A stretch of 64,000 nucleotides of DNA from contig NZ_AP018341.1 of assembly GCF_003574135.1 (NCBI RefSeq), forward strand, positions 1,488,001 to 1,552,000, in the 5' to 3' direction. This document shows positions 3,551-47,640 of this stretch, in pieces. This stretch comes from a cyanobacterium endosymbiont of Rhopalodia gibberula (GTDB taxonomy: Bacteria > Cyanobacteriota > Cyanobacteriia > Cyanobacteriales > Microcystaceae). The first letter of the stretch is position 1; each line of letters starts with the position of its first letter. The translations under genes were made by a program, and so were the position numbers. The notes beneath the pieces were generated by a model. It had not been told where the DNA came from and did not search any database. It saw only the letters and a list, made by a program, of their open reading frames with translations.

Positions 3551-4849
3551 CTACAAAACTCGTAAAATACTAGGGATACTTTTTATTGCCTCTAGGGTAC
3601 GGACTTCATCTAGGGCAGTTCGGAAATTTCCTTCACAAACATAATGAGTAACAACCACAATTTCTGCTAGTTCCTCTTTAAACCCAATTTGTACCACAGA
3701 CTCCAAACTCACTTGATAGTTCCCAAAACTTGTTCCAAGATGACCGATTACTCCTGGGACATCCCTAGTGAGGAAGCGAACATAAAAACGGGTTTCAATG
3801 GCTTCTATCGGGGTGATTTGACAATAATGCTGATGTATACAACTCAATAAAGGGTCAAGAGTTTGGGTACGATTATTGCTTTTGAGTATAGCTACAATAT
3901 TCATGATATCTGAAACAACTGCGCTGGCTGTAGGACCGGCTCCTGCCCCTGGACCATAAAACATAACTTGTCCGAGAGGATCGCCTTCAACTAGAATGGC
4001 ATTGTTCACTCGGTCGACATTGGCTAAGGGATGGGATTTAGGCACTAGGGTAGGATGGACCCGTAGTTGGAGGGTATGCGATTCTGTTCCCTCTAATCCT
4101 TTAGCGATTGCCAGAAGTTTAATCACAAACCCTAATTTATCTGCATAGGCAATATCGACTGTACTTACTTTGCGAATTCCTTCACAGTAGACACTCTCTC
4201 GTTGGACCCGTCCACCAAATCCTAGAGAGGCTAAGATGGCAATTTTATCAGCCGCATCCAACCCATCCACATCAGCGGTTGGATCGGCTTCGGCATAGCC
4301 CAACCGTTGCGCTTCGATTAAGACATCACTAAAATCAGCTCCAGCATTGGTCATTTGGGTTAGAATATAGTTAGTGGTTCCGTTAACAATGCCGATGATA
4401 CTGGTGATGCGGTTTGCTCCTAAAGACTGTTTGAGAGGTTTAATAATAGGGATTCCACCACCAACAGATGCTTCTAGAAGAACATACACGCCCGCACGAT
4501 TGGCCGCTTCGTAAATCTCGTCCCCGTGACGGGCGATAACCGCTTTATTAGCGGTAACAACGTGTTTTCCTTGGTCGATCGCTTGCAAAATCAGTGTTCG
4601 TGCTGGTTCTAGTCCGCCTAATAATTCCACCACAATGCTAATCTCAGGATCAGTAACAATGGCGTCTAGATCTGTGGTGATTACTCCTGGGGGAAATTTG
4701 ATTGGACGGGTTTTTTCTAGAGATCGTACCCCTACCTGACTTACAACAATTTCTTCCAACAGAGGATTTCGCCCCGAGGAATCAAGCAATATCTGGGCGG
4801 TTCCTGCCCCTACTGTTCCTAAACCTAGCAAACCAATCTTAAAGGCCAC
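3551..4849 (-). CDS. hom: Homoserine dehydrogenase
   Basis: Reduces aspartate semialdehyde to homoserine with NAD(P)H, the branch to threonine and methionine. The Rossmann motif GLGTVG lies at residues 9-14. The family motifs VVTANKAVIA and DGLDAADKIAILA follow, the latter with the conserved Asp and Lys. A C-terminal ACT regulatory domain (YVRFLTRDVPGVIGHLG onward) suggests threonine feedback control. The frame is open from an ATG at 4867. I place the start at the GTG at 4849 because an AGGAG box lies 7 bp upstream and the protein then begins MAFKIGLLG, as in relatives. It forms a likely operon with the M23 peptidase gene. Confidence 0.95.
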   Translation of the reverse strand: MAFKIGLLGLGTVGAGTAQILLDSSGRNPLLEEIVVSQVGVRSLEKTRPIKFPPGVITTDLDAIVTDPEISIVVELLGGLEPARTLILQAIDQGKHVVTANKAVIARHGDEIYEAANRAGVYVLLEASVGGGIPIIKPLKQSLGANRITSIIGIVNGTTNYILTQMTNAGADFSDVLIEAQRLGYAEADPTADVDGLDAADKIAILASLGFGGRVQRESVYCEGIRKVSTVDIAYADKLGFVIKLLAIAKGLEGTESHTLQLRVHPTLVPKSHPLANVDRVNNAILVEGDPLGQVMFYGPGAGAGPTASAVVSDIMNIVAILKSNNRTQTLDPLLSCIHQHYCQITPIEAIETRFYVRFLTRDVPGVIGHLGTSFGNYQVSLESVVQIGFKEELAEIVVVTHYVCEGNFRTALDEVRTLEAIKSIPSILRVL

Positions 4850-4953
4850 CACCGTACTCCTAATCATCCTTATCTTTGATCTAGATTAACGGTTTTTTGC
4901 AGTAGTTTCTTAGGAATTTAGAATCTTAGGATATGAATAGGACATTTTAACTT

Positions 4954-4994
4954 TATAAATATTAGAATTATTAATAATAATTCTAATATTTATA
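4954..4994. repeat. 41-bp near-perfect palindrome upstream of hom
   Basis: Two 20-bp arms (4954-4973, 4975-4994) are exact reverse complements around a single A. It is entirely A/T-rich and sits about 105 bp upstream of the hom start, in the 350-bp gap before the FAD oxidoreductase gene. It is unlikely to be an efficient terminator because the stem is weak. The rest of 4850-5198 shows nothing. Confidence 0.8.
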
Positions 4995-5198
4995 CTCTTA
5001 TACAAAAGTAGAGAGCGACAAACCACTTACTTTCACTGCAAACAGTGATACGAGCCAAACCATCAAAACTGCGATCAAACTGCTAATTGACCAAACACTA
5101 TAACATGCGTTATGGCAATCGTCTTCACAACAATCTCAACTGAGTTTCTCTCACTAATTGATCCTAGAATTTAAGTCAATTTCATTTCTGAATTAATT

Positions 5199-7235
5199 TT
5201 ATTTCCAATTATCCCAATCGTTATTAAAAATAGAAGTATCCGGAAAGCTTGTAAAGTTACCATTTTGATCTAATTTTTTTCGTAATTTTCTTAATTTTTC
5301 TGAGCGAAAAATTGGCTCTTTAACCATTTGATACGGTAATATCTGTTGATCCAAAGCAAAAGCTGCAACAGTCCCAGCAGCAGCCCCTGAAGACCATTCA
5401 AACGAATGTACCCGATAGGCAGCAGCGGCAATATGACTCACGGCAATACTCTTCCCTGTCACCAACAAATTATCAAGTTTTTGGGGAATCATCGCCCTTA
5501 AAGGAACTTGAAACGGGTAAGCTTGCCCAGCACCTTGTCTTTCTCCTTCTCTTTCAGCGTTCTTTGGTTTTTCGGCAGGAAATTCGGTCATACAAGGGTG
5601 AAAATCAATAGCATAATGACCTATTCCTACCGAGTCAGGATAAATGGTAGATCGCTTCCGTCTTGTTATGTCACTGGGAGCAATTCTTCCACTCAAAATT
5701 CCGAAACCTTCCCATCGTCGAATAGCTGCATGAAGACGACGATAGGTGTCAGGAGAAAGAGTTTTTTTATAAAATTCATCTTGATAATTGCGGCGAGAAA
5801 TATCAATTTCTGTTATGAGAAACCCATTTTTATAAGCGGAAGACTTCCGTCCAATAATTCGCCTTGCTTCGCGAATATAAGGATATTTAGATAGCCCATG
5901 TTTAGTTTCCATCGGAGAGTCAAAACCTGATAGAAAACGATGATTAGGATTAATTTTTTTGACTCCTTCTCCCAGTTGAGAATCTGTAGTTCCCCTCATT
6001 AACCAATAAAAATATCCTAAGGCGTTTTCTTCTCCTTTACGTAGGGACTCAGTTCTTAGTCCTCCCATCCATCCTCCAGATTTCAATTGTCCAGTCTCTT
6101 GCAATTGTTGACGGGTATATATTAGGTTATCTTGAGGATTTCCTGGACGATAATCATTACCCCAAGTCCAATTTTGCATAGAGATATCCCCGGGAGTGGG
6201 AACAGTAAAATTAATTCCCCCAAACTTTTTAGATTTCCCTTTTTTTCGATTCCAAATTCGTCGGTAAGTGTAAACTAAGTCGAAATCAGCTAATCGTTCT
6301 AATTCATAACTATAATAAGGAGCATATTGTGAATAGAAAATTGGCATTTTATGCGTTTGAGATTCCTTCATGGTTTCTATAGCAAAAGTATAAGTGAACC
6401 CTTGAGTACAGTAAGGATTGCCTGCAACGCTTGATGAAGAGGGTTCAAGATAGGAACGAGGATCAATTCCTAAACGGTGAGGAATGCCCGTTAAGCCGAT
6501 GATTTCTCCTGTTTCTGTGGCTTCTATAATATACCAGTCTGCGGGCTCTTGTTTGTTATTTTTGTCGGGAGTAAAACGAATAATAGTTTTGTCAAAGCGA
6601 GGAGAATTTTCGTAACGGTAAGCGTCTTCAATGGTTTGTGATAAGGGATAAGTATTAAGAGGAGGTTGACCATCAGCCGATTGATGTTGAATAGCAATCA
6701 CACTTAAAATTTGTTCTCCTGTTCCTCCTCGGGGGTTTTTACCAATATTTATATCTTTAATGACTGTTGAAGGAAACCATTTCAGAGTTCCATTGTGTTT
6801 ATTAGCTGCATCTTTCAACATCCTCATTAAAATGAGATCTCCGTCTCTCGGTAAAAAACAGGATTCACTTACCCAACAGTCTCCAGGATTGAGCTTGCCA
6901 TAATGCTGTTTGATGCGTTTTCTTAATTCTAGATAACCACGGGGGTAAATTAACTGTGATCGCTGGGTTTGTCGTTCGTCTAAAGCAGAAGTTCCCTGGG
7001 CCGAAATTTGCCCTCCCACCCAGTCAGTAATTTCGGTAAGACAGACAGTTTTTCCATCCAGTAAACCTTCATAAGCTGCAGCTGTTCCCGCAAGTCCTCC
7101 ACCAACAATCAGCATTCCACATTCAACAGTTTTATCGGGAGTACGAGGAGGGTTAGCCAGGGTCAAAGGAACAGTAATTTGTCCTAGAATGATGCTGAGA
7201 GGCAATGTAGCTAAATAACGGGGGATTTCGTGCAT
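5199..7235 (-). CDS. Secreted FAD-dependent oxidoreductase
   Basis: A large flavoprotein of 678 residues. After a hydrophobic N-terminal segment that looks like a signal peptide (about residues 5-27), a dinucleotide-binding motif IVGGGLAGTAAA starts at about residue 43. A second cofactor-contact segment near the C-terminus (DNLLVTGKSIAVSHIAAAA) is typical of FAD-dependent oxidoreductases in which this region closes over the FAD. The substrate is unknown. It is the longest gene in the window and shows no frame damage, so it is presumably under selection. An AAGGA box lies about 11 bp upstream of the ATG. No operon partner. Confidence 0.85.
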   Translation of the reverse strand: MHEIPRYLATLPLSIILGQITVPLTLANPPRTPDKTVECGMLIVGGGLAGTAAAYEGLLDGKTVCLTEITDWVGGQISAQGTSALDERQTQRSQLIYPRGYLELRKRIKQHYGKLNPGDCWVSESCFLPRDGDLILMRMLKDAANKHNGTLKWFPSTVIKDINIGKNPRGGTGEQILSVIAIQHQSADGQPPLNTYPLSQTIEDAYRYENSPRFDKTIIRFTPDKNNKQEPADWYIIEATETGEIIGLTGIPHRLGIDPRSYLEPSSSSVAGNPYCTQGFTYTFAIETMKESQTHKMPIFYSQYAPYYSYELERLADFDLVYTYRRIWNRKKGKSKKFGGINFTVPTPGDISMQNWTWGNDYRPGNPQDNLIYTRQQLQETGQLKSGGWMGGLRTESLRKGEENALGYFYWLMRGTTDSQLGEGVKKINPNHRFLSGFDSPMETKHGLSKYPYIREARRIIGRKSSAYKNGFLITEIDISRRNYQDEFYKKTLSPDTYRRLHAAIRRWEGFGILSGRIAPSDITRRKRSTIYPDSVGIGHYAIDFHPCMTEFPAEKPKNAEREGERQGAGQAYPFQVPLRAMIPQKLDNLLVTGKSIAVSHIAAAAYRVHSFEWSSGAAAGTVAAFALDQQILPYQMVKEPIFRSEKLRKLRKKLDQNGNFTSFPDTSIFNNDWDNWK

Positions 7236-44819: not shown

Positions 44820-45821
44820 ATGTGGACTCTTCTTCATTCCCGCTTACATATCACGTTACGACAACGCAATCTATTGCCTAAAAAAGAATGCATTTTAATT
44901 GCAGTTTCAGGGGGGCAAGATTCGTTATGTTTACTTAAACTTTTACTTGATCTCCAATCTAAATGGACTTGGAAGATTGCGATTGCTCATTGTGATCATG
45001 GGTGGAAACATGATACTGGAATAGCAGATTTTGTACAACAATTATCTGAAAAATGGAGAATTCCTTTTTATTTAAAAACTACCTCCCAACTGAAAGAAAC
45101 TGAAGCAGCGGCTAGAAATTGGCGCTATCAAGCACTAACAGAAATCGCCCAAGAAAACAACTTTTCTATAATTGTTACGGGACACACCCAAAGTGATCGT
45201 GCTGAAACCTTACTTTATAATCTCGTTCGCGGTGCAGGAAATGATGGACTAAGTGCTTTAACCTGGCAACGTCCTCTGACAGATAATATTATTTTAGTTC
45301 GTCCTTTATTAACTATTAATCGTTCAGAAATTTGGGAGTTTTGTCAAAAGTGCGACCTTCCGATTTGGGAAGATTTAGCTAACGAAAATTTAAACTATGC
45401 TCGTAATCGTATTCGAAAAGAATTAATCCCTTATTTTAAAAAAAATTTTAATCCTCAAATTGAAACAACTTTAGCCAGAACTGCTGAGATAGTCAAGGAG
45501 GAGACTGAATATTTAGAAAGTTGTGCTGAGATAAACCTAGAAAAGGCACTTAATAGAGATGGAACTCAATTAAATCGTCTAGTTTTACAGTCAGTGCCTC
45601 TTGCATTGCAACGGCGAGTTATGCGTAGATTTTTTTTAAAGATAAGTCTCAAAAATCCAAACTTTGAGCAGATAGAAGCCTTGACAACTTTAATTAATGC
45701 TCCCAGACGATCACGCATTTCTTCTCTTCCTGGTAATCTGATAGCAGAAGTTCAAGACAATTGGATAATTTTTACAAAACAAGAAACGGTCCAAAACAGT
45801 TTTGCTCAAGATACTCTATAA
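44820..45821 (+). CDS. tilS: tRNA(Ile)-lysidine synthetase
   Basis: Modifies C34 of tRNA-Ile(CAU) to lysidine, essential for reading AUA. The PP-loop motif SGGQDS is at residues 30-35. AHCDHGWKHDT, GHTQSDRAETLLYNLVRGAG and RNRIRKELIPY are typical of the N-terminal ATPase domain. 333 residues, as in other cyanobacteria, which have a shorter C-terminal part than E. coli. The frame is intact. The dead psaJ gene lies at its 3' end on the opposite strand. Confidence 0.93.
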   Translation: MWTLLHSRLHITLRQRNLLPKKECILIAVSGGQDSLCLLKLLLDLQSKWTWKIAIAHCDHGWKHDTGIADFVQQLSEKWRIPFYLKTTSQLKETEAAARNWRYQALTEIAQENNFSIIVTGHTQSDRAETLLYNLVRGAGNDGLSALTWQRPLTDNIILVRPLLTINRSEIWEFCQKCDLPIWEDLANENLNYARNRIRKELIPYFKKNFNPQIETTLARTAEIVKEETEYLESCAEINLEKALNRDGTQLNRLVLQSVPLALQRRVMRRFFLKISLKNPNFEQIEALTTLINAPRRSRISSLPGNLIAEVQDNWIIFTKQETVQNSFAQDTL

Positions 45822-45854: not shown

Positions 45855-45969
45855 AGAAAATACAAGATCAGGATAGAAATGGTTGATTTCAATCGATAAA
45901 CTGATAGTAACGGTAAATAATACTGTCATTAAAATAGGAGTATAGAAATAAACTTTGTAAAACTTTCAT
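45855..45969 (-). pseudogene. psaJ: psaJ fossil (photosystem I subunit IX)
   Basis: An ATG at 45969 is followed after one indel by a frame reading FYTPILMTVLFTVTISLSIE and then INHFYPDLVF. Normal PsaJ reads close to [30 protein letters not shown], so residue order is kept almost throughout. The frameshift within the first codons and the altered C-terminus make it non-functional. It directly follows the psaF fossil on the same strand, the usual psaF-psaJ order. It converges with tilS. Confidence 0.85.
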
Positions 45970-46022
45970 GAATAGTTATTCTAAATAGTAGGGAAAGTTC
46001 AATAAGTACAATGAATTGTTAG

Positions 46023-46446
46023 TTAACGAGGAGAAACGTAAATTTTACTATCTGTAGTAGTTAACTATCTATAGGTAAATTCATTAAAAGTAGCTTCAGT
46101 ATTTTGTAAATCTCTAATATTAATTAAATAAACCCAGTTACCCTAACTTGTAAATCCGGTAACATAGGGGAAGAGAATACTGGAAATAGTAAGTAAAGTC
46201 TTCTGCATAATTCAAAGTAATCCGATGGGAATGGCTTTCGGGTCGACAGAGGGCTTGTACAAAACGTTCGGCGCGTTCTGCCTTGACATAGGGTAGCCGG
46301 CGGTGTTACCAAAATTCTCAGATTTTTATTGATAAGCAGCTAGCTCACCACAATGAGTCAGCCGATGTAAAATATTTGTGGAGGCGGAAGGTGTAGAATT
46401 AGACTATAAGGTTGATATTAAAATTAGACTCAGCAATTCTTTTCAT
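46023..46446 (-). pseudogene. psaF: psaF fossil (photosystem I subunit III)
   Basis: Reading across breaks on the minus strand gives LTHCGELAAYQ, stop, KSENFGNTAGYP, then VKAERAERFVQALCRPESHS, then LNYAEDFTYYFQYSLPYVTG, then NWVYLINIRDLQN, then LTTTDSKIYVSPR and a stop. PsaF of other cyanobacteria reads [62 protein letters not shown] and ends in SPR. The match is therefore collinear, with several stops and frameshifts and about 30 residues missing before the C-terminus. Position beside tsaD matches the arrangement I know from Synechocystis (psaF-psaJ next to gcp). Confidence 0.9.
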
Positions 46447-46599
46447 AAAAGACATTTCCTTTTAAAAAAAAGACTAAGTTTTTGCACATGAAATGAGAGA
46501 ATCGGCTGCGTATTGACAGTATCTAATTTCTGACTCGCTAGTCGAGTGAATAAGGTAAAAAAATAAAAAAAGTAATTCTTCGTTACAAATTAGCAAAAA

Positions 46600-47640
46600 A
46601 TGGTAACAGTGTTGGCAATTGAAACAAGTTGTGACGAAACTGCCGTTGCAATTGTAAATGATCGTAATGTTTGGAGTAGTGTAGTAGCTTCACAAATTCC
46701 TCTACATCGCACCTATGGTGGTATTGTTCCTGAAGTGGCCTCCCGTGAACACTTAATAAAAATTAATCTCTGTATTGAACAAGCGTTAGTCCAATCTCAA
46801 ATTAGTTGGCAGGAAATTGATGGTGTGGCCGCTACTGTCGCCCCAGGATTAGTGGGAGCGTTGATGGTAGGAATGACAACGGCTAAAACTCTCTCAATTG
46901 TACATCAAAAGCCTTTTATTGGCGTTCATCACCTCGAAGGACATATTTACGCAACTTATTTAAGTGACTCTACTTGGAAACCCCCATTTTTATGTTTGTT
47001 GGTATCAGGCGGTCATACTAGCTTAATTCGAGTTCAAGATTGTGGGGTCTATGAACAATTGGGTACAACCCGTGATGATGCGGCTGGAGAAGCATTTGAT
47101 AAAGTCGCACGGTTGTTAAATTTAGGCTATCCAGGGGGACCGGCTATTGATCACCTCGCTAAAATTGGTAATCCTAAGGCGTTTCTTTTCCCAGAGGGGC
47201 GGATTTCTTTACCAGAAGGTGGCTATCATCCTTATGATTCTAGTTTTAGCGGTTTGAAAACAGCAGTATTACGGTTAGTTCAAAAATTAGACAAAAAGGA
47301 TAATGAACCATTGCCTGTAGCTGATATAGCAGCTAGTTTTCAGGAAACTGTAGCACGCTCACTCACTAAAAAAACTATTGCCTGTGCTTTAGACTATGGT
47401 CTTAATTCTATTGCTGTTGGAGGAGGCGTTGCGGCTAATAGTGAACTAAGAAAACAGTTAAAAGCATCAGGAGTTAAACACAATCTAAAAATCCATTTTC
47501 CTCCTTTAAGATTATGTACTGATAATGCTGCAATGATTGGTTGCGCTGCAGCTGCTCATCTTTACCGAGGACATACTTCTTCTTTAACTTTGAATGTAAC
47601 TTCTCAATTATCTATTACTGAAGTTATGCAACTTTATTGA
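46600..47640 (+). CDS. tsaD: tRNA N6-adenosine threonylcarbamoyltransferase
   Basis: Transfers the threonylcarbamoyl group to A37 of ANN-decoding tRNAs with TsaB and TsaE. Metal-binding His residues are in HHLEGH (about residue 110). Family blocks include ETSCDETAVAIV, RTYGGIVPEVASREH, LVSGGHTSL, LGTTRDDAAGEAFDKVAR and GGGVAANSELR. 346 residues, full length. It is divergent from the psaF fossil. A 13-bp hairpin overlaps its last codons and stop. Confidence 0.97.
   Translation: MVTVLAIETSCDETAVAIVNDRNVWSSVVASQIPLHRTYGGIVPEVASREHLIKINLCIEQALVQSQISWQEIDGVAATVAPGLVGALMVGMTTAKTLSIVHQKPFIGVHHLEGHIYATYLSDSTWKPPFLCLLVSGGHTSLIRVQDCGVYEQLGTTRDDAAGEAFDKVARLLNLGYPGGPAIDHLAKIGNPKAFLFPEGRISLPEGGYHPYDSSFSGLKTAVLRLVQKLDKKDNEPLPVADIAASFQETVARSLTKKTIACALDYGLNSIAVGGGVAANSELRKQLKASGVKHNLKIHFPPLRLCTDNAAMIGCAAAAHLYRGHTSSLTLNVTSQLSITEVMQLY

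Follow-up and report, generated by a model that had tools for sequence, protein, structure and literature searches.

The 64,000-nucleotide stretch of DNA analysed here (the window) raises the question of what lies between its intact genes tilS and tsaD, where the original prediction placed psaF and psaJ of photosystem I as fossils on the minus strand, and, should these be dead genes, at what point in the history of the symbiont they were broken. The window belongs to the genome of RgSB, the spheroid body (diazoplast) of the diatom Rhopalodia gibberula, which was searched as its single contig of 3,020,309 bp, a ~6-kb plasmid being separate from it. The locus is composed of the following features:

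44820 to 45821, plus strand: tilS, intact, the left flank of the remnant (open reading frame of 333 aa; Pfam ATP_bind_3 and TilS)
About 45969 to 45843 (3' end approximate), minus strand: psaJ pseudogene, photosystem I subunit IX (tblastn, Pfam PsaJ profile, lesion map)
46446 to 46023, minus strand: psaF pseudogene, photosystem I subunit III (tblastn, lesion map, blastn coordinates)
46447 to 46599: divergent psaF/tsaD leader region, alignable to free-living relatives in a seven-way alignment
46600 to 47640, plus strand: tsaD, intact, the right flank of the remnant (open reading frame of 346 aa; Pfam TsaD, E = 1.5e-93)

PsaF and PsaJ from a free-living genome of the same genus (G002, 5.2 Mb) were used as tblastn queries. 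PsaF matched the window at 46442–46026 with 77.8 bits (E = 6e-20) and PsaJ at 45938–45849 with 36.2 bits (E = 3e-7), compared with maxima of 24.6 and 23.5 bits, respectively, in 100 windows shuffled in 3-base blocks and with 20.4 and 20.0 bits for the reversed queries in the window. At the DNA level, the 677-nt psaF–psaJ stretch of G002 yielded three collinear blastn matches in the window:

46446 to 46216: piece 1, E = 5e-26
46180 to 46095: piece 2, E = 0.003
46064 to 45865: piece 3, E = 2e-30

Significant, collinear matches interrupted by stops and indels are thus present on the predicted strand and in the predicted place. The upper boundary of the prediction, 46446, coincides exactly with the psaF ATG; the lower one, 45855, was set slightly too high, and psaJ extends about 12 nt beyond it by alignment. 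The Pfam PsaJ profile also matches the psaJ remnant (RgSB contig positions 1533864–1533938, E = 1e-5). No sequence in the RgSB genome matches the Pfam PsaF profile at E 0.001, and the psaF fossil is therefore visible only with the protein or DNA of a close relative. A DNA search of the fossil against a plasmid collection returned no match.

The conserved psaF–psaJ order beside tsaD, a further element of the prediction, is borne out by free-living G002, in which tilS, psaJ, psaF and tsaD occur in the same order and orientation as in the window. In the stretches examined from PCC 8801 and G005, the psaJ–psaF–tsaD order is kept, and no tilS match was seen beside it. Stops in tilS of two sister diazoplasts, EtSB from Epithemia turgida and EcSB from E. 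clementina, were considered as further lesions at this locus and set aside, as they only end the C terminus a few codons earlier.

Lesions in the two remnants were scored by alignment to G002, with free-living PCC 8801 and G005 as controls; both controls have 0 lesions in psaF and in psaJ. The RgSB genes contain the following:

46406 to 46404, minus strand: psaF stop at codon 14
46328 to 46326, minus strand: psaF stop at codon 40
46145 to 46143, minus strand: psaF stop at codon 103 (TGG to TAG)
46067 to 46065, minus strand: psaF stop at codon 152
psaF nt 4: insertion of 1 nt
psaF nt 167, near 46280: deletion of 1 nt
psaF nt 231, near 46217: in-frame deletion of 9 nt (3 codons)
psaF nt 260, near 46192: insertion of 4 nt
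psaF nt 357, near 46096: in-frame deletion of 69 nt (23 codons)
psaJ start codon: deletion of 1 nt
psaJ nt 28, near 45944: deletion of 1 nt

The stops and frameshifts expected in psaF are present, and what had been described as a single loss of about 30 codons resolves into the two separate in-frame deletions. Substitutions between RgSB and G002 psaF are spread fairly evenly over codon positions 1, 2 and 3 (48/139, 33/138 and 48/139), whereas those between the free-living pair G002 and PCC 8801 fall mostly at position 3 (14/165, 8/165 and 59/165). In psaJ the distribution is 11/41, 9/41 and 22/42, less even than in psaF. An assembly error is unlikely, because EcSB and EtSB, whose genomes were published separately, have some of the same stops and indels. 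The psaF–psaJ remnant is almost certainly a dead gene pair that has stayed at its ancestral location in the RgSB genome, flanked by tilS and tsaD.

The fate of photosystem I elsewhere in the genome was assessed by searches for psaA/B, psaC, psaD, psaF, psaJ and psaL (psaE, psaI, psaK and psaM were outside the set), with EcSB (3,072,807 bp), EtSB (2,794,318 bp), the marine E. pelagica symbiont EpSB (uoEpiScrs1; 2,483,960 bp) and PCC 8801 (4,679,413 bp) as comparison genomes. No intact copy of any of the genes searched was found in the 3.02-Mb RgSB contig, including the second copies of psaF and psaJ that would have contradicted their loss. The genes psaA/B, psaC, psaD and psaL are fossils too: no psaA coding sequence was detected, psaB is represented only by an internal piece (RgSB contig positions 2492356–2493001), and psbA and psbD have no match in the genome. 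The psaC remnant is located at RgSB contig positions 980964–981196. These data agree with the predicted fully non-photosynthetic symbiont, a state already published for RgSB in the paper describing its 3,020,309-bp chromosome, with 286 pseudogenes and no functional photosystem I or II genes (PMC5638926). The psaF–psaJ fossil as such is ordinary. The available text of that paper does not name psaF or psaJ and contains no comparison of lesions between symbionts.

More generally, the PsaF profile matches in 37 of 39 genomes searched, and the match is stop-free in all 35 non-diazoplast genomes and in none of the four diazoplasts; EcSB and EtSB match with internal stops, and the remaining two, RgSB and EpSB, show nothing at E 0.001. 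The nearest TsaD matches to RgSB are those of EtSB (94%), EcSB (93%) and EpSB (91%). UCYN-A, a related nitrogen-fixing endosymbiont likewise without photosystem II, retains photosystem I, according to the available text of PMC11070190. In contrast to UCYN-A, with its retained photosystem I and genome of about 1.4–1.5 Mb, RgSB has a broken photosystem I and a 3.02-Mb genome. This predicted distinction is upheld by a 1.4-Mb genome of the same family (G013), apparently of UCYN-A type, in which psaA/B, psaC, psaD, psaF, psaJ and psaL are free of stops and psbA/D are absent. A precedent in a sister symbiont is the Rhopalodia gibba spheroid body, in which psbC and psbD are likewise broken by stops and truncation (PMC2246100, 2008, available text), although that case concerns photosystem II and the RgSB remnants photosystem I.

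The diazoplasts EtSB and EcSB contain psaF–psaJ remnants at the same place as RgSB, which allows their lesions to be compared. All three have in common the psaF 1-nt deletion at nt 167, the TGG-to-TAG change at codon 103 and the psaJ 1-nt deletion at nt 28. RgSB and EtSB also share the psaF 1-nt insertion at nt 4, while RgSB and EcSB share the stops at codons 14 and 40 together with the 9-nt deletion and the 4-nt insertion; at these four sites EtSB shows different changes or a larger deletion. In a random-placement model that takes no account of mutation hotspots, none of 20,000 placements reached the six identical psaF lesions of RgSB and EcSB, and 85 reached the three of RgSB and EtSB; the two common to EtSB and EcSB were reached in 3036 of 20,000, which is within chance. 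The same 1-nt deletions in A runs can occur twice. Based on the frameshifts and the stop common to the three symbionts, psaF and psaJ were probably already broken in the common ancestor of RgSB, EtSB and EcSB.

It is important to note that the photosystem I of free-living cyanobacteria can do without PsaF. The psaF and psaJ lesions therefore date the death of these two genes and not necessarily that of the whole photosystem, and their use as proof of a dead photosystem I in the three-way ancestor was dropped for this reason. Other genes show different patterns. No psaL lesion is common to all three symbionts, and different pairs share different lesions. In psaC the internal lesions are all private, and the three symbionts agree solely in a 1-nt insertion at the stop codon; psaC may have died later than psaF, but by a rough estimate the low number of shared lesions is not significant for a gene of this short length.

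The most distinctive lesion outside the window is found at psaAB. In both RgSB and EcSB, psaB ends near codon 516 of 742 and is followed by a remnant of a chorismate-binding gene (PF00425), roughly its final 34 codons, and then by chlM; we infer the truncated gene to be menF. The junction lies at about position 5653 of the RgSB locus (L112, reverse complement) and about 5476 of the EcSB locus (L164), and both of its sides score beyond all 1000 shuffles in either genome. The two junctions agree to within a few AT-rich bases, whose number differs. A clean TAT microhomology was considered and rejected, for TAT occurs in both parents but the AT-rich bases intervene; microhomology in some form is possible. 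The shared junction suggests that psaB was broken before RgSB and EcSB split. Upstream of it, EcSB has a chimera with a psaA 5' part and a psaB 3' part (L164, about 3908–5475), in which the switch falls inside a stretch where the two paralogues resemble each other, as expected from psaA–psaB recombination.

The proximity of psaAB to chlM is itself a displaced arrangement when set against the three photosystem I–bearing genomes in which the position of chlM was checked: in G002 it lies on another contig than psaAB, and the distance between them is about 290 kb in PCC 8801 and about 100 kb in G013. The gene menF adjoins chlM in G002 and does not in PCC 8801. In EtSB and EpSB the psaA/psaB profiles find no match, but the neighbourhood is the one seen in RgSB and EcSB. 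In EtSB a psaA leader precedes the menF remnant (score of 87 versus a shuffle maximum of 39 in 1000 shuffles), and with psaAB gone the psaB junction cannot be scored there. No other menF remnants were found in the four diazoplasts at the search sensitivity used. As a separate observation, chlM contains stops in EtSB (contig positions 2035754–2036466) and is stop-free in RgSB, EcSB and EpSB; its state in RgSB and EtSB agrees with PMC5638926.

EpSB has a different record. It is called the most distant symbiont in the available text of PMC12903740, and a tilS plus tsaD tree places it outside RgSB, EtSB and EcSB with moderate support (95.7/78), a placement that the tsaD-only tree leaves undecided; the grouping within the three is weakly supported (76.2/64). 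Its psaF is reduced to a trace of 61 nt (blastn, E = 1.5e-4), and its psaF/psaJ deletions span the sites of the frameshifts common to the other three. The 4-nt psaF insertion of RgSB and EcSB was not seen in EpSB in the alignment. The codon-14 site reads TAG in RgSB and EcSB, CAG in EtSB and CAA in EpSB; a codon-14 stop ancestral to all four would need two independent T-to-C changes and was not used.

The common neighbourhood had suggested that EpSB might also possess the psaB::menF junction. This was rejected, as EpSB seems to retain menF sequence upstream of it: a 42-nt stretch located between a conserved gene and chlM (L180) corresponds to menF sequence some 68 nt on the 5' side of the RgSB/EcSB junction, by a narrow margin when taken alone (41 versus a shuffle maximum of 38 in 1000 shuffles) and within a longer menF match scoring 73 versus 54 (300 shuffles). 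Beside this menF remnant, psaA-leader sequence is recognizable against G002 (71 versus 50, 300 shuffles); against the EcSB psaA leader the score of 48 was reached by 7 of 300 shuffles and hence does not lie beyond them, nor does any match of EpSB to psaB. By these comparisons, the psaB::menF deletion found in RgSB and EcSB probably does not go back to an ancestor of EpSB; the displaced neighbourhood is common to them. That the photosystem I core was lost in separate events in EpSB and in the group of RgSB, EtSB and EcSB is possible, though we consider it rather doubtful.

A simple model for the locus would begin with reduced carbon supplied by the host, which would have ended selection on photosystem I. 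Breakage of psaF and psaJ would have preceded the split of RgSB, EtSB and EcSB, and that of psaB the split of RgSB and EcSB, after which each lineage would have accumulated further stops, indels and deletions of its own. The remnant has no protein function; it persists since its removal by deletion is slow and its neighbours are retained.

Several alternatives have to be weighed against this model. A chance likeness of AT-rich intergenic DNA to psaF–psaJ might be argued from the silence of the PsaF profile at E 0.001 in the genome and from a 62-aa open reading frame with a weak, below-cut-off Pfam match to an unrelated family, but it is vanishingly improbable given tblastn and blastn scores far above those of shuffled sequence, two genes in the right order with the right neighbours, and the less eroded states in EcSB and EtSB. 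Maintenance of the remnant for a non-coding role, for example that of a tsaD leader or regulatory RNA, would fit the 150-nt psaF/tsaD leader that can still be aligned. In contrast, deletions have cut into the gene body in RgSB (69 nt), EtSB (46 nt) and EpSB (several stretches), while tsaD can be aligned from end to end in all four diazoplasts, which makes such a role highly improbable.

More relevant to the timing is the proposal that each symbiont lineage lost the genes on its own, with no single death in a common ancestor. The private internal lesions of psaC, the different psaAB break in EpSB and the lack of any EpSB psaF frameshift that could be matched, its deletions covering those sites, are all compatible with it. 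Against it stand the identical psaF and psaJ lesions that RgSB, EcSB and EtSB have in common, together with the psaB::menF junction found in both RgSB and EcSB. Independent death throughout is very unlikely; the proposal can survive mainly for EpSB versus the rest.

With the death of psaF and psaJ thus referred to the ancestor of RgSB, EtSB and EcSB, the lesion history is the part of these results worth keeping, and it is of moderate interest. No description of psaF/psaJ remnants, common photosystem lesions or a psaB–menF fusion was found for these symbionts in the available texts of PMC2246100, PMC11070190, PMC11131595, PMC11167328, PMC8831587, PMC12903740 and PMC5638926 (supplements and the 2014 EtSB paper being outside this set). 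The lesion reading bears on a published debate over whether EpSB and the other symbionts derive from one or several acquisitions (PMC12903740). According to the available text of that source, the small genome and few broken genes of EpSB make several acquisitions more plausible, yet that idea has listed problems and a single marine ancestor is also supported. The present lesion data do not decide between the two. Should photosystem I have been functional at the time EpSB branched off, the loss of photosynthesis would have come later, in a symbiosis that was already established or following separate acquisitions.

The psaB::menF deletion provides a useful marker in this context, being common to RgSB and EcSB, unlike the apparent EpSB event, and it removes part of the photosystem I reaction centre. 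The gene menF serves the synthesis of phylloquinone, a photosystem I cofactor; if the truncated gene is truly menF, the deletion also removes a phylloquinone gene. Rhopalodiacean spheroid bodies, for which retention of nif genes has been published for the group, are a model for the transition of a cyanobacterium to an organelle-like nitrogen-fixing compartment, and common versus private lesions can date the steps by which photosynthesis was lost.
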